Shown here: one piece after another, positions 1 to 10,565 of the stretch
Layout: each line of letters begins with the position of its first letter
How positions within the stretch are numbered: position 1 is the first letter of the stretch
From: JBFJWU01 sp041623475 [NCBI: bacterium]
Lineage (GTDB): Bacteria > J088
Assembly (NCBI GenBank): GCA_041623475.1
Contig: JBFJWU010000092.1
Location: 1-10,565 of the forward strand
DNA length: 10,565 nucleotides
Reading direction: 5' to 3'
The notes under the pieces: generated by a model
What the model was told of the DNA's origin: nothing
The model's input: only the letters and a program-made list of their open reading frames with translations
Database searches by the model: none
Translations under genes and position numbers: made by a program

Positions 1-758
1 AGCTGATCGACGCGATCGAATATGGCGGTGCGCGTGGCGTCCGGTTTGGACTGCTTACCAACGGAACGGCACTGTCGGACCGTTTTGTCGAACGGGCCCT
101 TGAACATTTCGCCTATATCCGGGTGACGTTGGATGCGGCAGACGCAGAGATGTACGGCGTCGTTCGGCCCAGTAAAGGCCGAAACCCATGGGAGCGTGTC
201 CTGGAGAATGTTTCCCGGATCGTAAGCGAGCGCAATCGCCGCGGGCTGTCGCTGGACATCAGCACAAAATTCCTGGTCAGTTCGGTTAATCGGCACCAGA
301 TTGCACCCGCCGTCGATCTGGCTGGCCAGTTGGGTGTCGATTCGATCCAGTTCAAGGCACTGCGCCTGGATCCGACGGAATTGACGCCAGACGAGGCACG
401 AAACGTCAGCGAAGAACTGGAAGCATTGCGACAGGCTGGACCGGCAGTGCCAATCCTGGGTGGCGTTGACAAATTGGAAATGACCCGACAATGCGAACTG
501 ACACCGCTGCAGGTCACGATCGACGCCCATGGCGATGTCTTTCTTTGCTGCTATTTTCGGCACCGCAGGAAACGGCACTCGATCGGCAACATTTATGAGG
601 ACGATTTTGCCAGTATCTGGGCGACTGAACACCATCGTCGGGCAATCGCCGAGATCCGGCCGAGCGAATGCAGTCTGCTGGACTGCCGGTTTGTCAGGTA
701 TCACGACCTGGTCGACCAGTGGATGGGGGACCGTCCCGACACGTTTTCATTTATTTGA
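1..758 (+). CDS. Radical SAM protein with SPASM/twitch-like C-terminus (5'-truncated)
   Basis: The frame is open from the window edge (first full codon at 3) to the TGA at 756-758, giving 251 visible residues; the N-terminus, with the expected CxxxCxxC cluster motif, lies upstream. The visible part carries typical radical SAM TIM-barrel signatures: a LLTNGT strand near residue 17, a YIRVTLDA strand near 37-44, then RPSKG and WERVLENV, where related enzymes have their substrate loop and helix. The C-terminus fits the start of a SPASM domain: C164, 12 residues, G177, 4 residues, C182, then C183, the sequence IGNIYEDDFASIW, and C223-x4-C228. Members of this superfamily cleave S-adenosylmethionine to a 5'-deoxyadenosyl radical, and SPASM/twitch cysteines hold auxiliary Fe-S clusters; many such enzymes modify peptides or sugars. 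The substrate here is unknown. The full seven-cysteine SPASM pattern is absent, so one auxiliary cluster is more likely than two. The stop overlaps the next start as TGATG, indicating one operon. Confidence 0.85.
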   Translation, partial: LIDAIEYGGARGVRFGLLTNGTALSDRFVERALEHFAYIRVTLDAADAEMYGVVRPSKGRNPWERVLENVSRIVSERNRRGLSLDISTKFLVSSVNRHQIAPAVDLAGQLGVDSIQFKALRLDPTELTPDEARNVSEELEALRQAGPAVPILGGVDKLEMTRQCELTPLQVTIDAHGDVFLCCYFRHRRKRHSIGNIYEDDFASIWATEHHRRAIAEIRPSECSLLDCRFVRYHDLVDQWMGDRPDTFSFI

Positions 759-2140
759 TGAAGCCCGGCATCCGCCCGGTGTCTGAGTGGCCCGGCAACA
801 TCCGTCGCGTTGCGTTCATTACCCCACCATCGAAACGCCCGGTCCTGCGCGATTACTATTGCACAAGTACGACCAAAGGCAATTATTATTGGCATCCTGC
901 GGACCTTTGGGTCCAGGGCGCGTACCTGAAAGACTACGTCGAAACGCGCCTGTTCGAAGGGCCAGGCCAGGAGCCTGCCCGATTTGCTCGAGCGATTGCC
1001 AACTGGAAACCAGATCTGCTGGTTGTCCTGGTCGGCGGGTTCAGCCTGGATGACGACACGTCTTTTGCGCGGGCCGTTGCCCACGCCACCGGTGCGCCAC
1101 TGGTCATTGGCGGTGAATCCGTATTCCTGGGGTGGGGGCACTGGCAGCGGCAGCCGATGGTGGCCGGTCTACTGACCGGGTTTGCGGGCCCCGGCTTGCG
1201 CAGCGCAATTACCGGTAGCGGATTGCTGGACGGGTTTCTGCCGCGGCCGGATTCCCGGGGACCATTCAATGGAGCGGTTCAACCGGCTGGGCAGGCCACA
1301 CTCGCCTGGGGCCTGCCCCCGGACTGGCCCCTGGAAGGATACCGTTATCCGTTGCTGGGGCGGCCGTTTGCGTCAGTACTCACCTCTTATGGGTGCCCAT
1401 TTCGCTGCAACTACTGCAACAACAACCGCGATATTCTAGGTGTTGCCGTCCGGGACCTGGATGACCTGGCGCTGGAACTGGGTCACTGGGCAGAAAAGGG
1501 TCTGCGCTGGCTGCATTTTCGCGACGTCAATTTTGGCGGCCCACTGGCAAACGCCAGGCGAATCCTGCGTCATCTGGCAGACAGGCAATATGGTTTTCGC
1601 TGGAACGCGTTCCTGCGACCCGAGATTGTTACCGGGCCATTGGCCGAGCAACTGGCGGCCAGCGGTTGTGTACAGATCCAGATGGGCGTCGAGTCGGCAA
1701 GCCAGGATACGCTGGACCGGGTATCCCGAAAAGGCAAGTTGGAACAGGTTCGCCGCGCGTTTGAAATCCTGGATCGTGTCGGCATTCGGCGTGGCGCCCA
1801 TTTTGTCCTCGGCTTACCCGGGGAATCGGTTGACGACGTGCAGCGAACAATTGATTTTGCCTGCAGCCTGAACCCCGACTACGCATCGTTCAATATCGGA
1901 ATTGTCCGGGGCGGCACGATTTACGATGGCGGTGCGCCATTGGGCGATTGTTCCGGCGATGGCAAGGTCGATTCGATTTCGCTGTTGGATTCAGGGCAAC
2001 TGCGACGCCTGCAACGTACCGCAAACCGCCGGTTCTACCTGCGCAGCCGATTCGTCGGCCGGACGATCAGGTCGCTCGCACGGGATCCCGGGCTGTTTCC
2101 CCGAGTTATCGCCGACGGTGTGGGCTTATTGATGACCTGA
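758..2140 (+). CDS. B12-binding-like radical SAM protein
   Basis: This gene encodes 460 residues. The ATG at 758 is chosen because it overlaps the preceding TGA (TGATG, translational coupling) and is followed at once by the domain start; an in-frame ATG at 668 would sit deep inside the upstream gene. I see no Shine-Dalgarno sequence. Residues about 15-160 look like a Rossmann-type cobalamin-binding domain (RRVAFITPPS strand, then KPDLLVVLVGG and APLVIGGE), but a DxHxxG cobalamin-ligand motif is absent, as in many relatives. The radical SAM core begins with C213-x3-C217-x2-C220 (YGCPFRCNYC), the 4Fe-4S ligands, followed by MGVES (309-313) and LGLPGES (351-357), both typical of the BchE/class-B-methylthiolase-like group. 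The C-terminal roughly 60 residues are basic and helical. Such enzymes often catalyse methylation, cyclisation or oxidation in secondary or lipid metabolism; the specific reaction cannot be read here. The last 15 bp overlap the convergent gene. Confidence 0.85.
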   Translation: MKPGIRPVSEWPGNIRRVAFITPPSKRPVLRDYYCTSTTKGNYYWHPADLWVQGAYLKDYVETRLFEGPGQEPARFARAIANWKPDLLVVLVGGFSLDDDTSFARAVAHATGAPLVIGGESVFLGWGHWQRQPMVAGLLTGFAGPGLRSAITGSGLLDGFLPRPDSRGPFNGAVQPAGQATLAWGLPPDWPLEGYRYPLLGRPFASVLTSYGCPFRCNYCNNNRDILGVAVRDLDDLALELGHWAEKGLRWLHFRDVNFGGPLANARRILRHLADRQYGFRWNAFLRPEIVTGPLAEQLAASGCVQIQMGVESASQDTLDRVSRKGKLEQVRRAFEILDRVGIRRGAHFVLGLPGESVDDVQRTIDFACSLNPDYASFNIGIVRGGTIYDGGAPLGDCSGDGKVDSISLLDSGQLRRLQRTANRRFYLRSRFVGRTIRSLARDPGLFPRVIADGVGLLMT

Positions 2141-4375
2141 CCTCTCGTGGTCTGAGCCGGAAGGTTCCCCTGGCGCTTTGGTGGTCCATAATCGCGGTTG
2201 GACATTGATTTCTGTGGCTGCAGCTTTGTTTTCGCTGACGGCATAGATTCTGTTTGGTTCCAGGCCCTCGAAAGTCGAGATCGAGCCGGATCCATGCCAA
2301 TAAACGAGCAACTGCGAGATTCGGGTCGAATCACCCAGCCCGATTTCCAGTTGCAGACTGTTGCTGCCAAAACTGCCGCCAGACCCGACGCGTCTATGGA
2401 TTGACCGCGCGCCCGATGGCCCCTCTGTTTCCAGCTGCACCCGGCTATCCATTGCATCGCGGTTGGATTTGCTGCCTGCCAGGCGCAGGATCACCCAGTT
2501 CTCTTGCCCACCGGGGTTGGCATACAACGAATCAGCAAACCGGTCGGCCGGTATCCACCCGCCGAAACTGGCAGCGACGTCCTGGTCACCGTCCAGGTCC
2601 AAATCGCCAAATGCGATTCCGTGTCCTTTTTGAAGGTGGCCGAACCCGCCACGATACGTGATATCGATGAAGCCGCGCCCCGTCCGGTTCTGGAACGCCC
2701 TGTTCGGCATCAACATTTCAAACGGTGGTGCGCCGGTGCCAATCAGCACATCCTGGAATCCATCGTTATCCAGATCGCCAAAATTACCGCCCATCGGAAA
2801 GCAGGCTCCGTGTAACGCGTATTTTTCAGTCTGGTCGACCAGGTTGCCTGTCCCGTCGTTGACATAGACCCGGGGCCGGTCGCACGTGGATTTGGCTCCC
2901 GCAAAAGGAACCCCTGACGGTCGGCTGGACGAATTGTAATCACCAACCATCAGGTCCAGCCAGCCGTCATTATTGACATCCCAGAACCAGGATGTGAAGG
3001 CACGGCCCGGATGTTCTGCCAATGTTGCGGGAGTTTGCTCGACGAACGTACCATCGCCCCGATTCAGATACAGACGATTTGGACCAGAAAATCCGGCCAG
3101 AAACAGATCCAGCCAGCCATCATTGTCGATATCGCCCCACAGACTGGCCAGGCACCGTTTAACTGTCCTAAGGCCCGCGGCCTCGGCAACGTTCGAAAAT
3201 GATTTGCCGTTTTCGTTTCTGAACAATTCAATCTCGCGATGCTCGTTGCAGACCACCAGGTCCAGCCAGCCGTCATTGTTGTAGTCGCCCCAGTCCGCAG
3301 CGACACCGTTATTGATGCTTGTACGCAGGCCCATTTTCCGGGTTACATCGGAAAAGCGCCCGCGGCCGTCGTTTGCGAGCAATGTGTGGTGCTGCGCCTG
3401 ATGATAGATCGTATCTGCCGTCGTCGTGGACTCCCAGACGCCACGCATCAGGTATATGTCACGGTCGCCGTCGTTATCAAAATCAGCCTGGATCAAGTTC
3501 GCGACCCCAGTCTGTCTGGCCAGCTCAGGATCGTTGGCGGCAACCAGGCCCGACTCCGTATTCCTGTATAAACGGATCGGGTCGCACGGACCAGACGACG
3601 TCATAACCAAATCCAGCCAGCCGTCCCCGTCAACATCTTCCATCAGCGCGGATCCAACCAGGCCGTCGGCGATCAGTCCCAGGGAGGGAGCGATATTCGC
3701 GAAATGTCGAAAGTGCGCGCCTGGGACAACGGCGGTAATTGGCAGTAACCATTTCGGCGGGACCGATACGGGATAGCCCCCTGCAGCCATCGCAGCCACA
3801 TTCAGCAGCCATTGAATTTGCCCATCGGGACCAATCAGTTCCAGGGCCCGGTCCAGAGACGTTACTGCGTCTCGCGCAGGTGATGCGTCTTGATGGATGC
3901 CGCCTCCCTGAAGGGGATAGACGCATGCGTCTGCGAGATGGCCGGTCGCACAGTTGCGGGTTTCAGCCCGGCGCAGCTGGGCGATCCCCAGTTGACGCAG
4001 CGCCATACCATGTCGAATCTGTCCAAGTTCTACGGATTTTGTCACCGCTTCCTGGAAATTGGCCACCGCCGCATCGTCCATACCGTTGTGCAGCAGGTAT
4101 GTGCCACGGTTGGCCAAGGCTTTGACCGCCGCCGATTGATCCTGCGCATCGGCTAGTTTGCGGTCGAAACCGGGAAGGCAGTCTGCAGGATCTTCTGCGG
4201 TTTGCTGGCACCTGCTGCCAGCCAGGTCCGTTCGAATGCAGGTCCACCCCTGCAGTACGGTGGCCTGGTAGCTTGCCTGTGGGGGCGGTGCCTGCCGCCG
4301 GACAACAATGGCGGCGACTGCCACGACCATTGCTGTGACCATTGAAACAGCAATCAGAGCGTTGCGGGTAAACAT
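2126..4375 (-). CDS. CRTAC1-family protein: TPR-like, FG-GAP propeller, ASPIC/UnbV
   Basis: This gene encodes 749 residues. A hydrophobic segment at about 6-25 followed by RR suggests an uncleaved signal anchor or signal peptide, so the body is probably periplasmic. Residues about 76-190 are helical and TPR-like. The WLLNVAAMAAGGYP...VPPKWLLP stretch (189-212) is the usual junction in this family. A beta-propeller follows with seven DxDxDG-type calcium loops starting at 247, 298, 364, 415, 466, 534 and 591, four of the six intervals close to 51 residues. Residues about 625-715 form an ASPIC/UnbV domain with the hallmark GSGGSFGSNSLQLEIGLG. UnbV proteins are known from enediyne clusters, and CRTAC1 homologues are widespread in environmental bacteria; no enzymatic role is established. 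The gene lies back-to-back with the UnbU/UnbV fusion gene across 55 bp. The only clear start is the ATG at 4375; no convincing Shine-Dalgarno precedes it. The TAA overlaps the convergent radical SAM gene by 15 bp. Confidence 0.9.
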   Translation of the reverse strand: MFTRNALIAVSMVTAMVVAVAAIVVRRQAPPPQASYQATVLQGWTCIRTDLAGSRCQQTAEDPADCLPGFDRKLADAQDQSAAVKALANRGTYLLHNGMDDAAVANFQEAVTKSVELGQIRHGMALRQLGIAQLRRAETRNCATGHLADACVYPLQGGGIHQDASPARDAVTSLDRALELIGPDGQIQWLLNVAAMAAGGYPVSVPPKWLLPITAVVPGAHFRHFANIAPSLGLIADGLVGSALMEDVDGDGWLDLVMTSSGPCDPIRLYRNTESGLVAANDPELARQTGVANLIQADFDNDGDRDIYLMRGVWESTTTADTIYHQAQHHTLLANDGRGRFSDVTRKMGLRTSINNGVAADWGDYNNDGWLDLVVCNEHREIELFRNENGKSFSNVAEAAGLRTVKRCLASLWGDIDNDGWLDLFLAGFSGPNRLYLNRGDGTFVEQTPATLAEHPGRAFTSWFWDVNNDGWLDLMVGDYNSSSRPSGVPFAGAKSTCDRPRVYVNDGTGNLVDQTEKYALHGACFPMGGNFGDLDNDGFQDVLIGTGAPPFEMLMPNRAFQNRTGRGFIDITYRGGFGHLQKGHGIAFGDLDLDGDQDVAASFGGWIPADRFADSLYANPGGQENWVILRLAGSKSNRDAMDSRVQLETEGPSGARSIHRRVGSGGSFGSNSLQLEIGLGDSTRISQLLVYWHGSGSISTFEGLEPNRIYAVSENKAAATEINVQPRLWTTKAPGEPSGSDHERSGHQ
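2955..3625 (-). repeat. Propeller-blade repeats visible at DNA level
   Basis: The 14-mer TCCAGCCAGCC(G/A)TC, read on the plus strand, occurs at 2955, 3108, 3261 and 3612. The first three copies are exactly 153 nt apart, which is 51 codons. On the coding strand they encode DGWLD, the calcium-loop core of successive FG-GAP blades. These are internal coding repeats of the minus-strand gene, not a mobile or intergenic repeat. Confidence 0.8.
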
Positions 4376-4430: not shown

Positions 4431-7280
4431 ATGAACGAGCGGATCTCCAGCGCGCCAGTGCAGCCTCGCGGCATTCGGTTGCAACAGCTGCTTAACCAAC
4501 TGGTTTTCTTGTACTTCGCCAAAGTAGTCTTTCATCTGTCGATACGCTGGATCGATCTGGTGGCTGTGCTGGCGGTCGCGTTCATTGTGGAACACGCTAT
4601 GATCTGGCTGCGCAGCCGACGGGCGGGTATCCCCTGGTATTTTTCGACATCCGCACTCAGCAGTGGATTCAATGTGGTGTTTATGCTGGGGTCCGTTTCG
4701 ACGATTCTGCTGTGCGGTGCCGTCGCATTCGGCCTCGTGCACAAGCATCTTGTCCAGTTAACAGGCCGCCGGCATTTTCTGAACCCGTCCAATGTCGGAA
4801 TCGTCGGCGCGATGTTGTTTTTCCCCGACATCACCTGGGCGACATTCCTGGACTGGGGGACCGATATGACCTTTGCCCTTACTGTGGCAGTCCTGGCAGG
4901 CGTTCTTCTGGCCAGGGTCCGGTTGCTGCACGTCGCGATCGTCTTTCTGGTCAGTTGGATGACACTCAGTTGGTTGTTCAATCCGTTGTCGGCGGGCACG
5001 ATTATTGTCCAGGTCGGGTCGGGCGGGTTCCTGTTGTATGCATTGTTGATGGTTACCGATCCGCGATCATTGCCTGCGACAGTCCGTGGTCGGATTGTCT
5101 ACGCGATCCTGACGGCCACATTCGCCGTTGTGATACCACTGGTGGTTGGAACAAAAGACATCAATCTGTTCCTGGCGCTGTTGTTGGGCGGGTGTTTTGT
5201 TCCGTTCATTCGTCGCGTGGAATCAAGAGCTACGGAGCCGTCCGGAATAATCGCTGGTGCGGCTGTTGCCGTATATGTTGTTGCTGTACTGGGAATCGCA
5301 CTTTCGCCGGTCAATGCCAGACGGAATCTGGATATGTCGACGATTGCTGAACGGTTGTCCGCCCCGCTTACGGTTTCAGTCCCGGATCAGGCTGGAACCG
5401 TTATCGGCGCGGTTAACGAGTCGCTATACCCTGCGGGATGGTCACGGTCTGGCATTGTCGCATTGCCCCTTGAACCAGTCGCCCGGAAACGACTGGCGTT
5501 CCAGCAGGTAGAAAACGGTTTGTCCGGTTATGCATCGGCGCTGACCGCGGCGCATCTGGGATGTGACCTGTTTATGTATTCTGCCGTTGCTGCCGCGGAC
5601 ATGGACCTTGACGGCCATACCGACCTGGTCCTGGCAAAACCGGCGCAGGGATTGCGCATCTATTTGTGGCGATCTGGACAGTTCAGTGACGGGACCAGCC
5701 TGTTTTTCCCCGACGGGGCACCTGCACATATCGAGCACGTGATCGCTGCGGACTTCGACAGCGACCGCCGAATCGACCTGTTGGTTACGCGCAGTGACTA
5801 TACCAGCGGCGCGGGCGGCACGTTGTACCTGCAGCAGGACAACGGAACGATGCGGCCGGTCGTGGATCGAATCGGCGCAGGTTTGCATAGTTCCGGCGGG
5901 ATATCGGTGGTTGACCTGAACGGCGACCGTCGACTGGATTTCTACATCAGTTATGGCGCGGACTGGCACAGCGAACAGGATGACTTCCTGACGGCGCCGG
6001 ATCCAGACCTGTTTTACCTGAGTGCCACAGACGGCTGGCAAGTATACGATTTGGGCTGGTATCCTCGCCAGGTTGCTGGCCGGCCGCTGCTGGGAATGAC
6101 TGTATTATTCACAGACTGGAACCAGGATGGTGCAATCGATTTCTTGCTGGGGTCCGATTTTCTGGACCCCAGTTTGACGTATTCCGGTGGCTTGTCGATG
6201 CAGGTCGTTAACCGGGGAATGATCGAGAACAACACGATGCACAGCATGAGCTATTTTCCTGTCGATGTTGACAACGACGGCGTTTTTGAACTTTGGGAAA
6301 ACGGAATATCCCACGCGGCCAGTTTTGACCGCGTGGAACACGTCAAATTACATGGTCCGGCACACAGCATCCTCGAACGTGAAATACTGCATCTCGCCCG
6401 GAACCGGGACCCCGGGCGTTTTGACTGCGGCGTGTACATGCACCCGCATTCGCGCAACCTGTGCCTGGACCTGAGCCAGCGCCGGCGCGCGCTGGCCGCA
6501 GGTGATGACAGCCTGTGTGCCGGGGTCGCGGCCATCGAAACCCGCCGCGAGTGTATCCGCAAGGTGGCCCGCGCCAGGGGGCGGTCAATCCCGGACCCGC
6601 GTCAGTCAGCTGCCGACATCGAGCGGTTTCCGCCGCAGCTGCGGGAAAACGTTCTGTTGAAAAAAGATCTCGACACTGGGCGTTACATAAATCGTCTGCG
6701 CGACGACGATGCAGCCCAATACACAGGATTTTCCTGGGCGACGGTGCCGCTTGACGCTGACAATGACGGTTTTGTTGACTTGTACATTGGCAATGGCGCG
6801 CTGATGGAGTCCCACGACAGCAACCGGTTCCTGCACAACCTGGGGCGGGGTGGTGCTGGCGGTAAATGGTTTTCCGAGCGAGCCATTGAGTTGGGAATTG
6901 CTGATCGCCGGGATACCCGAGGCGTTGTTGCAATTGATATGGACAATGACGGCGACCAGGACCTGGTCGCCAATCATTTCATGGGAGTACCAACCGTCTG
7001 GGAAAATCGGTCGGGCGGGGACAGTCTTCGCGTAGAGCTAAGGGGCCGCGTCGCGAATTACTATGGGATCGGTTCGCTGGTGCGAATGAAGACCACCCGC
7101 GGCGTTCAAGTACAAAGTATGACGAGCGGAGGCACTTGGAACAGCAGCGGGCCTTGGGCGTTGCATTTTGGTATTGCCGACGGCGACATGCCTGCCGAGT
7201 TGCTGGTCACCTGGCCGGATGGCACTACCACCGCTGTGGCCAATCCGCCGGTCAACCACCGAATAATTATTTTCCAGTAA
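4431..7280 (+). CDS. UnbU-like (RnfD/NqrB-type) membrane domain fused to FG-GAP/UnbV domain
   Basis: This gene encodes 949 residues in two clear parts. Residues about 20-291 hold nine to ten hydrophobic helices with RnfD/NqrB-family landmarks: SALSSGFNVVFML (74-86), HFLNPSNVGIVGAM (115-128, compare the family's FNP motif) and LLMVTDPRSLPATVRGRIVY (205-224, compare MATDPVT...KG.IIY). UnbU of enediyne clusters is of this type. RnfD and NqrB are ion-pumping subunits that bind FMN covalently at an SGAT-type threonine; I find no SGAT in this domain. Residues about 380-850 contain seven calcium-loop motifs starting at 390, 441, 495, 562, 612, 775 and 836. The end (867-949) is ASPIC/UnbV-like, with GIGSLVRMKTTRGVQVQSM and SGGTWNSSGPWALHFGIAD. 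Between loops five and six lies a roughly 150-residue insert with C666, C678, C696 and C708. The propeller is presumably outside the cytoplasm, though an even helix count would argue otherwise. The domain assignment is firm by pattern; the function is unknown. Confidence 0.88.
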   Translation: MNERISSAPVQPRGIRLQQLLNQLVFLYFAKVVFHLSIRWIDLVAVLAVAFIVEHAMIWLRSRRAGIPWYFSTSALSSGFNVVFMLGSVSTILLCGAVAFGLVHKHLVQLTGRRHFLNPSNVGIVGAMLFFPDITWATFLDWGTDMTFALTVAVLAGVLLARVRLLHVAIVFLVSWMTLSWLFNPLSAGTIIVQVGSGGFLLYALLMVTDPRSLPATVRGRIVYAILTATFAVVIPLVVGTKDINLFLALLLGGCFVPFIRRVESRATEPSGIIAGAAVAVYVVAVLGIALSPVNARRNLDMSTIAERLSAPLTVSVPDQAGTVIGAVNESLYPAGWSRSGIVALPLEPVARKRLAFQQVENGLSGYASALTAAHLGCDLFMYSAVAAADMDLDGHTDLVLAKPAQGLRIYLWRSGQFSDGTSLFFPDGAPAHIEHVIAADFDSDRRIDLLVTRSDYTSGAGGTLYLQQDNGTMRPVVDRIGAGLHSSGGISVVDLNGDRRLDFYISYGADWHSEQDDFLTAPDPDLFYLSATDGWQVYDLGWYPRQVAGRPLLGMTVLFTDWNQDGAIDFLLGSDFLDPSLTYSGGLSMQVVNRGMIENNTMHSMSYFPVDVDNDGVFELWENGISHAASFDRVEHVKLHGPAHSILEREILHLARNRDPGRFDCGVYMHPHSRNLCLDLSQRRRALAAGDDSLCAGVAAIETRRECIRKVARARGRSIPDPRQSAADIERFPPQLRENVLLKKDLDTGRYINRLRDDDAAQYTGFSWATVPLDADNDGFVDLYIGNGALMESHDSNRFLHNLGRGGAGGKWFSERAIELGIADRRDTRGVVAIDMDNDGDQDLVANHFMGVPTVWENRSGGDSLRVELRGRVANYYGIGSLVRMKTTRGVQVQSMTSGGTWNSSGPWALHFGIADGDMPAELLVTWPDGTTTAVANPPVNHRIIIFQ

Positions 7281-8919
7281 TGGAGAAATCGAACTGGACC
7301 GGCTGCTTTCGTTTACAAACTGAAACCCGGTGTCTGGCTGCTGTCGGTGCCAGCGGCGCGCGCAACCAGGCAGCGTCAGCCGGTTCGTCGGCAATAACAA
7401 TCGTCCGTGGGCGGTCGCCGCAGTACGCGACCAGGTCATCGTCGTCAGGATGTCCCCAGATCACGTTTGCGCGGTTGGGCGGCGTCACCAGTGCGGAAAC
7501 GCATGGTTGATCACAGACGTTCAGCGGCAGGCTCAGCAGCCCGGCAGAAATGACGCGGGTCCCTGACGCAAGCTCGTCCGAAAGTTGTTGCAGGGGGAAT
7601 GACTCAAACAGGCGAAATCCCCGGGACTGGACCCACGGTTGTTCGTAGACATGGTCCAGCCTTTCCCAGACACGGATTGGCGGGTTGCCGGGATACCACT
7701 CGGTTCCAGCCGACATCGGGACAACCCAGGTCCGGGCACGGGAATTTGCAATCACGCCAAGGTATCCGGGTTCTGTCAGGAATGACAGGTCGGTGAGGAA
7801 TATGTCGTCGTCATTCAGATCCTGCAGGATCGTTTGCAGCGGATAGCGGGATTCGATATTCCAGTAGAATTCGGGCGATGAATACTGAAACCGTGCGAAA
7901 CTGGCAAAAAAGATGAGGCTTACCCCTGCAATCATTACTCGTTCGCCCCAGACGGATGTCGGGCGAATGGATGCCAACCCCAGAGGCCAGGCCATGGTCA
8001 GTGCCAACAGATAACGGCTGTGAAGTGGCGGCTGTAGAACGGCCCAGCCAACAACATGCATCAGCACTGCGGCCGCGAGTATTTTTACAATACACCTGTG
8101 CTGCCGAAGGCCGGCCAATCCAATGATCGCGATAGTGGCGGCCGCGATGGCCCACGGAAGTGGTCCAGTCCAGCCGAATAATTCCAACAGGTCGAGCGGG
8201 CTGACTCCTGATAATCGATCGGGCAGTGTGTAGTTGGTACCTTCGACGACCGTTCGCACCGGACCACGGTATAGATAGACCTCCCACGATGTCGCGATGG
8301 CGAGCAATGCCAGTTCAATCGCGCCGCCAATGCCAACACGATCGCGTTGCCAATTGGATCTGTTGGCAACCAGGATCGTGGCCAGCCACATCGGTGCGCC
8401 GAACGGTGCTGACAGGACTGATACCAGGTTGGGAACGGCTCGCCGCCAACTGAACCCGGCAATATCCCGATAGATTACGCACGCCAGGCCGCCAAGAATC
8501 AGGAATGCATATTGCCGCCCGTGGTGTGCGTAATACAACGGGAACGGGGTCCCCAATAGGAAACCGACGGTCAGCAGGCGCTCGCGCAGGCTGCGATGGT
8601 CACGCCTGGCTGCAGCGGCGAGGACCAGTGCAAGGACCAGCGCAATTACGTGAGGCACTCGAAAAGTCCAGCCGCGGAACGTGCAGTCGCCAAACAGCAG
8701 TTGCCAGGCAAACTCCGTCGTAAAGCCTGCGGACATTGTCAATTTTTCGGACAACGACCACGGCAGGCAGGCTGCCAGTCCAGCCCAGGATTCGTTAAAT
8801 GTTGCCGGCAGCGTGGTTTGCCAGGCGAGATGGTGAGCAATCCCGCAAATGACCAACGCCCACAGGGTCGCTTCGCCTACGGATCTTGCGGGTGTTGGTT
8901 TGTCTGTGATCTGTGCCAT
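7267..8919 (-). CDS. Polytopic membrane protein, probable GT-C-type glycosyltransferase
   Basis: This gene encodes 550 residues. About nine to ten hydrophobic helices (roughly 17-34, 89-105, 112-130, 135-152, 163-185, 196-214, 254-270, 276-295, 300-318, 326-342) are followed by a soluble C-terminal part of about 200 residues. The layout resembles GT39/ArnT/PMT-like GT-C transferases, which move sugars from polyprenyl-phosphate donors on the outer face of the cytoplasmic membrane. Supporting patterns are an acidic residue in the first external loop (E43 in TFNESWAGL, where relatives have a catalytic Asp or Asp-Glu), FRVPHVIAL (86-94), HHGRQYAFLIL (132-141), comparable to the family's ARxYxL segment, and HSRYLLALTMAWPLGLA (300-316). 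The match is by pattern only and the usual DE pair is not present, so substrate and activity are open. The ATG at 8919 is the only good N-terminal start; no Shine-Dalgarno is visible. Its TAA overlaps the fusion gene end by 14 bp. Confidence 0.6.
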   Translation of the reverse strand: MAQITDKPTPARSVGEATLWALVICGIAHHLAWQTTLPATFNESWAGLAACLPWSLSEKLTMSAGFTTEFAWQLLFGDCTFRGWTFRVPHVIALVLALVLAAAARRDHRSLRERLLTVGFLLGTPFPLYYAHHGRQYAFLILGGLACVIYRDIAGFSWRRAVPNLVSVLSAPFGAPMWLATILVANRSNWQRDRVGIGGAIELALLAIATSWEVYLYRGPVRTVVEGTNYTLPDRLSGVSPLDLLELFGWTGPLPWAIAAATIAIIGLAGLRQHRCIVKILAAAVLMHVVGWAVLQPPLHSRYLLALTMAWPLGLASIRPTSVWGERVMIAGVSLIFFASFARFQYSSPEFYWNIESRYPLQTILQDLNDDDIFLTDLSFLTEPGYLGVIANSRARTWVVPMSAGTEWYPGNPPIRVWERLDHVYEQPWVQSRGFRLFESFPLQQLSDELASGTRVISAGLLSLPLNVCDQPCVSALVTPPNRANVIWGHPDDDDLVAYCGDRPRTIVIADEPADAAWLRAPLAPTAARHRVSVCKRKQPVQFDFSITGK

Positions 8920-9301: not shown

Positions 9302-10565
9302 ATGGGGATGAGGCGAGGAATTTACGGGGGACTGCAGTCGCTGCGGTGGCCGGCATTGATGTTGGCGCTGACGGTGTCGATGCAGTCGGGCGCGGACGTC
9401 TCGGCAATGATTGCCAACGAAGACGACACGGTCTTTGCGGCAGATGAACTGCCGGTACAGTTGGCGGTGCCCCAGGCCAATACGCTGGTTGATGATATCG
9501 GCATCCGGATCAGTACCCGAGGCTTCGAGTTTCTCGGTACTCAGATCCAGTTGATCGTTAATGGTTGGATCCGGACTGATCGCCTCAATACGACCACCTA
9601 TGACGATTACGAAAGTACGATCCAGTATCTGTTGAACGATTTTACAATGGGCTACAAGTTTTCGACCGAGCCGACACTGACCGGCTGCCTGTTGTTGATG
9701 AACCGTGACGATGACAACGGCGGCAATGGCAGTTGCCTGTGCGATTACGAATCCGGCAGTCAGGGCAATACAGACCCGCCGTGGGCAGATACGGTTGACT
9801 GTGACCGCTGCTGGCCGGTGGCCGGTGTCAATAACCCCGTGCCAGCGGCAGGTACCTTTACCGGCTGCCCGGCTGGCCTGGGGGCCCGCCGCTCCCGTTA
9901 TCAGGACCCGGCTGCACCGTCAGATCCGACCTTTTACGACTGGTGCAAGGGGCCGATGGTCGACGAGGTCCTCAGTTTCAATAACTTTAATGCCGACCCT
10001 GACTGTTACAAGCGGGATTCGCAGGATACCGGCGAAACGTGTCCGACAATTTATAATTCCGGCGGTGGCCTGATCACCTGTGGTGACAAGGACGGCGATG
10101 GCCGTTACTGCGACCCCGACTATGATCCCGAGAACGACGTCCGCGTTAACGTCTGGAATGATTCCGGTAATAACCGCCTGGTTCTGGATATCGAACTGGA
10201 AAATTTTCAGGTTGATGGCTGGGTATTCCTGGATATCGGTTGTGATTACTGCCTGTGGGGCAGCGGTGGCCGGTTTGCCAGTGTCAGCGGTATCGATGCC
10301 CGCCTGTATGTTGAATTCGTCAACGGCAACAACCCCACCTGGGCCCGTGATGGTGAGCCCTACAGTGGTGGTGGCGGTGGCGGCGGCGGCGGTGGTGGCG
10401 GCGGCGGCGCTCCCCCCGCCAAGAATCTGGGCAGCTGTAGTGGCGGCTCCGGCGGTGGCGGTGGCTCCGGCGGTGGCGGTGGACCAACGGCTCCGCCGCT
10501 TGAATCGCTCAGTAATGATGCCCTGATCGGCATTAACCTGGTGGTTGATTATGTCAGTATCCAGG
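9302..10565 (+). CDS. Exported Cys-rich protein with poly-Gly linkers (3'-truncated)
   Basis: The frame stays open from the ATG at 9302 to the window end, giving 421 codons. A good AGGAG site supports the start. The N-terminus has basic residues (RR at 4-5), a hydrophobic stretch (WPALMLALTVSM, 16-27) and a small-residue cleavage region near VSA (33-35), so export is likely. The mature part has 14 cysteines (129, 145, 147, 167, 170, 189, 215, 235, 247, 260, 270, 314, 317, 379), suggesting disulfides outside the cytoplasm or metal sites. DKDGDGRYCDPD (262-273) resembles a calcium loop. Fourteen consecutive glycines (356-369), then GGS(G)5S(G)5 (381-394), form flexible linkers before a further domain starting near 400. 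I do not recognise the family; a surface or outer-membrane-associated protein is plausible. Long frames in another register (9705-10073, 10080-10526) are shadows of this gene. Confidence 0.75.
   Translation, partial: MGMRRGIYGGLQSLRWPALMLALTVSMQSGADVSAMIANEDDTVFAADELPVQLAVPQANTLVDDIGIRISTRGFEFLGTQIQLIVNGWIRTDRLNTTTYDDYESTIQYLLNDFTMGYKFSTEPTLTGCLLLMNRDDDNGGNGSCLCDYESGSQGNTDPPWADTVDCDRCWPVAGVNNPVPAAGTFTGCPAGLGARRSRYQDPAAPSDPTFYDWCKGPMVDEVLSFNNFNADPDCYKRDSQDTGETCPTIYNSGGGLITCGDKDGDGRYCDPDYDPENDVRVNVWNDSGNNRLVLDIELENFQVDGWVFLDIGCDYCLWGSGGRFASVSGIDARLYVEFVNGNNPTWARDGEPYSGGGGGGGGGGGGGGAPPAKNLGSCSGGSGGGGGSGGGGGPTAPPLESLSNDALIGINLVVDYVSIQ
10367..10408 (+). repeat. GGY codon tract encoding 14 glycines
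   Basis: Fourteen successive GGT/GGC codons encode an unbroken glycine run. The codons are mixed rather than identical, so it is not a perfect microsatellite, but it could still vary in length by slippage in multiples of three. Confidence 0.9.
10442..10483 (+). repeat. Second Gly/Ser linker tract
   Basis: This tract encodes 14 residues, GGSGGGGGSGGGGG, with two near-identical units of TCC GGC GGT GGC GGT. With the tract at 10367-10408 it brackets a short Pro/Ala/Cys segment and separates the upstream Cys-rich region from the domain starting near 10500. Confidence 0.9.

Follow-up and report, generated by a model that had tools for sequence, protein, structure and literature searches.

The question raised by a stretch of 10,565 nucleotides from the bacterium JBFJWU01 sp041623475 (lineage J088; contig JBFJWU010000092.1 of assembly GCA_041623475.1), here called the window, is whether one of its genes is a natural single-chain fusion of proteins resembling UnbU and UnbV, which enediyne clusters encode separately and to which, to our knowledge, no role has been assigned. 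A sequence-only reading of the window had proposed that it is. The answer reached here is that the proposal stands for the general kind of each half, an RnfD/UnbU-like membrane domain followed by an ASPIC/UnbV-type propeller, and falls for their identity, as the trees of both halves place them apart from UnbU and UnbV themselves. The protein puts known parts together in a new way, as one instance of a broader pattern of propeller-capped membrane domains; its junction of membrane domain and propeller looks natural, and joining of this kind is found again with other membrane partners. The gene and the parts of it on which the argument depends are as follows.

4431..7280, +: fusion gene, 949 amino acids, with membrane domain, anchor helix, seven-loop propeller and ASPIC end
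4467..5228, +: RnfD/NqrB-fold (UnbU-like) membrane domain, residues about 13-266 (Pfam, separate model, structural match)
4764..4799, +: R-R-H-F-L-N-P-S-N motif region, residues 112-123 (H115, N118 and P119 the same throughout 21 UnbU-like rows)
5049..5063, +: M-V-T-D-P motif, residues 207-211 (M207, D210 and P211 likewise the same throughout 21 UnbU-like rows)
5241..5324, +: extra long helix, residues 271-298, the presumed carrier of the chain to the outside (model; hydropathy peak at 273-291)
5490..7025, +: CRTAC1/integrin-type beta-propeller with seven calcium-type loops (structural match to CRTAC1; loop pattern)
6315..6575, +: helical insert with four cysteines, residues 666, 678, 696 and 708 (alignments, model)
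7065..7265, +: ASPIC/UnbV C-terminal domain, residues 879-945 (Pfam)

Throughout 4431-7280 the frame is open (949 codons), and the other two forward frames there contain 30 and 28 stops. Pfam finds NQR2_RnfD_RnfE at residues 154-264 (E 3.6e-12, above the curated cut-off), FG-GAP_3 in four stretches (E 2.1e-24) and UnbV_ASPIC at 879-945 (E 1e-11), and NCBIfam adds RnfD/NqrB matches that are all sub-threshold. The seven calcium-type loops, which would be expected to hold the ion, start at residues 390, 441, 495, 562, 612, 775 and 836; five have the strict form D-x-[DN]-x-[DN]-G-x-x-[DE], for which the mean in 2000 shuffles of residues 301-949 is 0.012. A full-length AlphaFold model from a 28-row alignment (mean predicted local distance difference test score, pLDDT, 76.8; predicted template modelling score, pTM, 0.62) has membrane helices up to residue 266, a long helix at 271-298, the propeller, and a helical insert at 629-715. 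The succession that had been proposed, an RnfD/NqrB-type domain, seven FG-GAP loops and an ASPIC/UnbV end in one frame, is agreed on by Pfam, by two AlphaFold models and by structural matches. All the expected profile families are significant, the membrane match being at 154-264 and not, as had been anticipated, at about 40-290; it spans the second half of the membrane domain only, and the models make the whole RnfD/NqrB fold visible, together with a CRTAC1-like propeller.

Modelled separately (pLDDT 80.9), the membrane domain matches Azotobacter RnfD (8rbq_D) with Z 20.4 and a root mean square deviation (rmsd) of 3.4 over 247 aligned residues. Neither finding that was to count against the proposal was made: the N-terminal half has, by profile and by fold, a significant match, and the layout recurs as fusions in other genomes, the separate genes being neighbours in relatives. 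Other Rnf/NQR chains match at Z 18-20, ahead of urea and ammonium channels (Z 8-11). Both landmarks picked out in the sequence-only reading, NPSN and MVTDP, are real and overlap invariant columns, K105, H115, N118, P119, M207, D210 and P211 being unchanged in 21/21 UnbU-like rows. This same seven-residue set is unchanged also in nine rows that include enediyne UnbU; its H-x-x-N-P part occurs too in wider RnfD-like proteins and so is not exclusive to UnbU. The stretch in which RnfD has its [ST]GAT flavin site is missing from all 30 aligned UnbU-like rows, the window included. Five RnfD/NqrB rows were compared, with S/TGAT in three (L090, L091 and L094) and SAAT in L092; in L093 the site was not found.

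In a membrane-domain tree of 35 rows, the five RnfD/NqrB rows are set apart at 100/100. The window is kept out of the group of enediyne UnbU and true UnbU::UnbV fusions (see below) by a branch supported at 98/96; these fusions are represented here by L115, L155 and L156, with L204-L206 not in this tree. Constraining the window domain to join these three is rejected (approximately unbiased, AU, test, p 3.6e-6). The window instead adjoins DUF2330-type domains (92/80), and its best pairwise match among those compared is L158, with 26% identity over 269 residues (E 4e-17). Judged by alignment and tree, then, the membrane half belongs to the UnbU-like superfamily as one of its diverged members and is without the flavin-attachment loop of RnfD. 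Elsewhere in this superfamily, the UnbU-like domain is joined to DUF2330 (L157, L158, L160 and L161), and four RnfD-like frames (L224, L227, L231 and L234) end in C-terminal Sel1 repeats, the RnfD-like match of L227 coming from one of two analyses.

The C-terminal half has quite other affinities. Its model (range 354-949) matches murine CRTAC1 (9etn_A) with Z 39.9 and an rmsd of 2.6 over 449 aligned residues. Inside the propeller, some 85 residues (629-715) make up a helical insert with cysteines that might pair as disulfides; the sequence-only reading had not noted it. By tblastn against plasmids, proteins of Rhodobacteraceae align with window residues 295-939 (27% identity for Leisingera), and the N-termini of these propeller proteins are ArsP_1 permease domains in all six full-length proteins scanned. 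The fusion protein itself has no Pfam match to ArsP_1 (PF03773) and none to a profile made from three ArsP-type domains. With the window propeller as BLAST query, the best ArsP-type propeller is found at E 2e-36 and the best UnbV at E 2e-4. Insert cysteines 678, 696 and 708 are cysteine in 7/7 rows of alignment A4, the window among them, and also in 10/10 other genomic rows of alignment A5, in which the insert is absent from L001 and from all six true UnbU::UnbV fusions. One ArsP-type protein, from Parasedimentitalea (L082, 6628-9761), is annotated as three frames and appears broken or mis-sequenced.

A propeller tree of 41 rows, restricted to columns with a residue in half of the rows or more and lacking L205, joins the window at 98/98 to 14 ArsP-type cysteine-insert propellers, the ArsP_1-type domain being in the same frame in 12 of them and in an adjacent frame in two. 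Since no more than 15 of the 41 rows should contain the insert and columns less than half filled were dropped, it should not be what drives this grouping. Constraining the window propeller to join five true-fusion propellers is rejected (AU p 0.0195). Among 11 cysteine-insert loci in the phylum of genome G066, the ArsP-type domain is in the same frame as the propeller in nine (L116, L197-L203 and L214); in L195 and L196 it is in a separate adjacent or overlapping frame upstream. By this comparison of sequences the window protein is a member of the cysteine-insert propeller lineage on a different membrane domain.

True UnbU::UnbV fusions do nevertheless exist. Searches with the UnbU-like domain (A1), most of which scored only some candidates per genome, yielded three fusions (L115, L155 and L156) from 377 genomes of the phylum of G066, which should be Myxococcota since the Myxococcales genome with L001 is among them, and three more (L204, L205 and L206) from 246 genomes of the phylum of G005, which should be Planctomycetota. 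None was seen, by inspection of frames or by frame length, in 297 genomes of the phylum of G003 or in 80 of that of G006. The frame of L155 has a long N-terminal extension that is probably outside the gene, L115 reaches a contig end, and L204 and L205, while from two genomes, are near kin with Rieske genes 90% identical. In the membrane tree, L115, L155 and L156 form with the unfused L173 a 100/100 group, and in the propeller tree five of the six true fusions make up a group of their own, also at 100/100. The sister group is in each case that of the enediyne proteins and their kin, at 98/96 for the membrane domain and at 98/92 and 99/94 in two propeller trees. As the window does not belong with them by either constraint test, fusion probably arose at least twice. 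(A frame of 270 amino acids found as L212 10010-10822 on the reverse strand and as L173 5011-5823 has an UnbU-like domain and, by tblastx to the true fusions, an ASPIC end, apparently with no propeller in between, from internal deletion or assembly error.)

The neighbourhood of the true fusions has its own character. Three genes are each near 6/6 of them (tblastn, the query's own locus being counted): one for a Rieske oxygenase, one that is GH3-like and one without a Pfam family. Pfam identifies the first as PF00355 with VanA_C (two scanned) and the second as PF03321 (one scanned), and has no family for the third (one scanned). These loci form a conserved cluster, with a 257-amino-acid product for the third gene, and a small-molecule pathway is likely. 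By tblastn none of these three genes is in the window. The suggestion that UnbU and UnbV work as one complex draws its support more from the six other fusions than from the window. Such natural single-chain versions argue that UnbU/UnbV-type pairs act as one unit; they offer single proteins to purify and tie the pair to clusters with a Rieske oxygenase.

Common to the window and all six true fusions is a hydrophobic helix between membrane domain and propeller, at residues 273-291 in the window, 341-359 in L115, 849-867 in L155, 318-336 in L156, 302-320 in both L204 and L205, and 305-323 in L206. Such a helix would suit a membrane domain with a cytoplasmic end and a propeller outside.

How often the exact combination in the window occurs is a separate matter. 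The window's own pairing was not seen elsewhere. Its membrane domain had no significant tblastn match (best E 0.17) in 80 of the 105 loci confirmed in a scan of genome contigs, and a scan of viral contigs found nothing. The A4 search of 377 genomes in the phylum of G066, with three candidates scored per genome, gave a match in 167 genomes; none of 11 propeller places there (L116 and ten others from among the best covered) had the window combination, all being ArsP-type in the same or an adjacent frame. The absence from 277 and 246 genomes of two other phyla is a weak negative for each, the A4 search there having had a strict limit, four to five candidates per genome and no positive control. 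All 19 weak long RnfD-like frames fetched from the A1 searches were without a propeller, and the G860 region from these searches has a propeller frame and a separate UnbU-like frame. The literature searched, which had most subscription journals outside it, yielded no description of UnbU with UnbV or of propeller-capped membrane domains, and the main text of a paper on the broader context (PMC8238504) contains neither UnbU nor DUF2330.

The remaining genes of the window are these.

3..758, +: radical S-adenosylmethionine (SAM)/SPASM protein, 5' end outside the window
668..2140, +: radical SAM protein, 490 amino acids, with a weak, sub-threshold B12-binding match
2126..4375, -: second FG-GAP/ASPIC protein, 749 amino acids, divergent, with 55 bases between its start codon and that of the fusion gene
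7267..8919, -: hydrophobic protein, 550 amino acids, no Pfam or NCBIfam match, convergent and overlapping the fusion gene end by 14 bases
9302-10564: protein containing glycine-rich runs, unmatched in Pfam and NCBIfam, cut off by the end of the window

Six proteins of this 10.5-kb window were scanned; none is another Rnf/NQR subunit by Pfam or NCBIfam, and none is a polyketide synthase (PKS) by Pfam.

Enediyne UnbU and UnbV are, from gene order, presumably E5 and E4. In all seven Streptomyces plasmid loci fetched, an UnbV-type gene is followed by UnbU and then by a type I PKS, which is the arrangement to be expected of the five-gene enediyne cassette; since separate genes run UnbV then UnbU, the true fusions reverse the cassette order. 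A comparison of enediyne clusters reports five genes in common (PMC5181780), and from the gene order in the loci here two of these should be UnbV and UnbU. Enediyne-like cassettes outside actinomycetes are suggested by a Serratia proteamaculans plasmid (L125), with an UnbV-UnbU pair and a ketosynthase-like gene annotated nearby, and by Sinorhizobium meliloti pSymA (L127), in which the pair adjoins a large frame that is PKS-like by eye. UnbV and UnbU frames directly precede large frames with a PKS-like start, again by eye, in L159, L164 and L167, and in L166 do so after two small frames. Propeller and UnbU-like genes or frames adjoin in L207, L208, L209, L213 and L236, all from the phylum of G005. 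In L170, L171 and L172, TPR-ASPIC, propeller, UnbU-like and second propeller genes are in a row (the TPR match was scanned in L170), facing a halogenase-like gene of the flavin adenine dinucleotide (FAD) type and a gene whose radical-SAM match is weak and sub-threshold. A protein of an Alteromonas plasmid (L085, 5355-8675) has N-terminal CxxCH heme-type motifs, noted by eye, and an FG-GAP-like C-terminal part; its neighbours are pyrroloquinoline quinone (PQQ)-dehydrogenase and Rieske genes.

What might such a protein be for? The reading tentatively preferred, at a little under even weight, is that of a single-chain, propeller-capped membrane conduit whose membrane part is a replaceable module for a small molecule. 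A single protein of the inner membrane would contain two modules that are coupled. The N-terminal one, of RnfD/NqrB fold, structurally akin also to urea and ammonium channels and without the covalent-flavin loop, would end on the cytoplasmic side, so that the extra helix would be needed to take the chain out and would leave the CRTAC1-like calcium propeller, the cysteine-bearing helical insert and the ASPIC end at the outer mouth. The membrane module would serve as conduit, and the propeller outside may bind the cargo or a partner that handles it; as to the cargo, a guess would be something made by the radical-SAM enzymes encoded nearby. That the conduit should be replaceable is suggested by the same propeller lineage otherwise riding on an unrelated ArsP_1 permease, and transport is preferred to electron flow because one propeller lineage is served either by such a permease or by a fold like that of RnfD and urea channels. 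Computation shows the architecture, the folds, the relatives and the exchange of modules, while topology, calcium and disulfide states and transport are inferences.

Several observations weigh against this reading. With a full-length pTM of 0.62 and pLDDT below 50 for residues 291-338, which link anchor and propeller, the position of the propeller above the membrane domain is predicted at low confidence. In the tree the membrane half sits on a very long branch (2.47), which makes its position within the superfamily unsure. An earlier propeller tree paired the window with L001 (87/93) and not with the ArsP group, a pairing flagged as one of two long branches; the second propeller tree, the one of 41 rows that joins the window to the ArsP group, had L001 and twelve other rows dropped (L018, L012, L002, L004, L006, two TPR rows, L172V1, L172V2 and the Streptomyces UnbV rows NBC887, Szao and NBC209) and twelve added. 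Nor does it hold in general that the anchor helix of the fusions is the N-terminal segment of UnbV itself: in separate UnbV proteins such a hydrophobic segment passes the hydropathy mark of 1.6 in five of eight, one reaches 1.41, and Sgosh and Szao as annotated have none. ArsP_1 is linked to transport by the names of families, a match to the Cu/Zn-efflux model (SO_0444) being far sub-threshold at 40.6 of 300 bits. Redox genes are beside several UnbU-like genes, and RnfD relatives carry electrons.

The last of these points leads to the strongest competitor, which is unlikely though not lightly put aside, namely that the membrane domain binds a flavin or quinone non-covalently and, in one direction as in NQR/RNF, passes electrons to a partner held outside by the propeller. 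The fold itself suits this, as do the Rieske oxygenase near 6/6 true fusions, a redoxin-family gene adjoining a Metabacillus UnbU-like gene, the halogenase-like FAD gene and weak radical-SAM match of L170-L172, and the Alteromonas ASPIC protein, with its possible hemes, beside PQQ-dehydrogenase and Rieske genes. In its favour too, electron transfer is still proposed for a published NqrB/RnfD-like subunit that lacks the conserved flavin-bearing Thr (PMC10979944). However, the flavin-attachment loop is indeed absent from the fusion protein, in which Pfam finds no domain for binding nicotinamide adenine dinucleotide (NAD), and the proteins scanned in the window offer no Rnf/Nqr partner. In ten other long UnbU-like frames, too, Pfam (E up to 0.001) finds no domain for binding flavin mononucleotide. 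The same propeller lineage pairs, besides, with the ArsP_1 permease, and we know of no ArsP_1 permease that carries electrons.

Rather improbable is a sensor or scaffold, with a propeller that binds an outside ligand or protein and a membrane domain that is mainly anchor or signal transmitter. Ligand-binding integrin and CRTAC1 folds are among the structural matches of the propeller, and UnbU-like domains do accept several partners, as with the DUF2330 fusions and the frames with Sel1 repeats. Yet seven membrane residues invariant in 21/21 rows suggest a working membrane core, and no cytosolic signalling domain is found in the fusion protein by Pfam. Very improbable is the proposal with which the inquiry opened, that of a single chain orthologous to the enediyne UnbU-UnbV pair. 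Motifs and the ASPIC/UnbV domain are as it would have them, and true fusions are found elsewhere, but both AU tests (three true fusions for the membrane domain, five for the propeller) reject it, the propeller matches UnbV at E 2e-4 at best, the six true fusions are without the cysteine insert, and the scanned window proteins include no PKS. An assembly or sequencing artefact joining two neighbouring genes, for which the want of a second copy of the exact combination in the genomes searched might be cited, is just as improbable, given a frame open without a stop, similarity to fused ArsP-type proteins that starts at residue 295 adjoining the anchor helix, and, from one clade in other genomes, six fusions of the same general layout, with separate genes adjoining in relatives.

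A broader reading is that polytopic membrane domains capped by ASPIC propellers are a class of modular envelope machines, of which UnbU/UnbV, working as a single unit, would be one member and the window protein a swapped hybrid that displays the interchangeability of modules. This is an evenly balanced call. What speaks for it is that one propeller lineage is found both on ArsP_1 and on RnfD/UnbU-like membrane domains, which are unrelated, and that one membrane superfamily has several outside modules (two propeller lineages and DUF2330). The former makes the role of the propeller a direct, testable question, and with recurring fusion it becomes easier to test what such pairs do, among them one from clusters that make antibiotics.

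The window protein compares with known systems as follows. With RnfD/NqrB it shares the fold (Z 18-20) and Pfam family PF03116, but is without the covalent-flavin loop and is apart from them in the tree at 100/100. With enediyne UnbU and UnbV, neighbours in their cassette, it has in common the UnbU-like membrane motifs and the ASPIC/UnbV domain; theirs are separate genes, however, and both halves of the window protein are outside the respective clades. The UnbU-like::DUF2330 fusions (L157, L158, L160 and L161) have a kindred membrane domain with DUF2330, not a propeller, as partner. CRTAC1 (ASPIC1) has the common propeller plus C-terminal domain, but is an animal protein, with a solved chain of 551 residues, and the alignment on the window side is limited to 354-949. 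Like the window protein, the true UnbU::UnbV fusions are single chains of UnbU-type domain, hydrophobic helix, propeller and ASPIC end; they have Rieske and GH3-like neighbours and no cysteine insert, and the window is the reverse. The ArsP_1-permease::FG-GAP/ASPIC proteins of Rhodobacteraceae plasmids and of the phylum of G066 have the same order of membrane domain then propeller, with propeller identity of 26-29% and the cysteine insert in common, and differ in that their membrane domain is ArsP_1 (PF03773) where that of the window is RnfD/UnbU-like.

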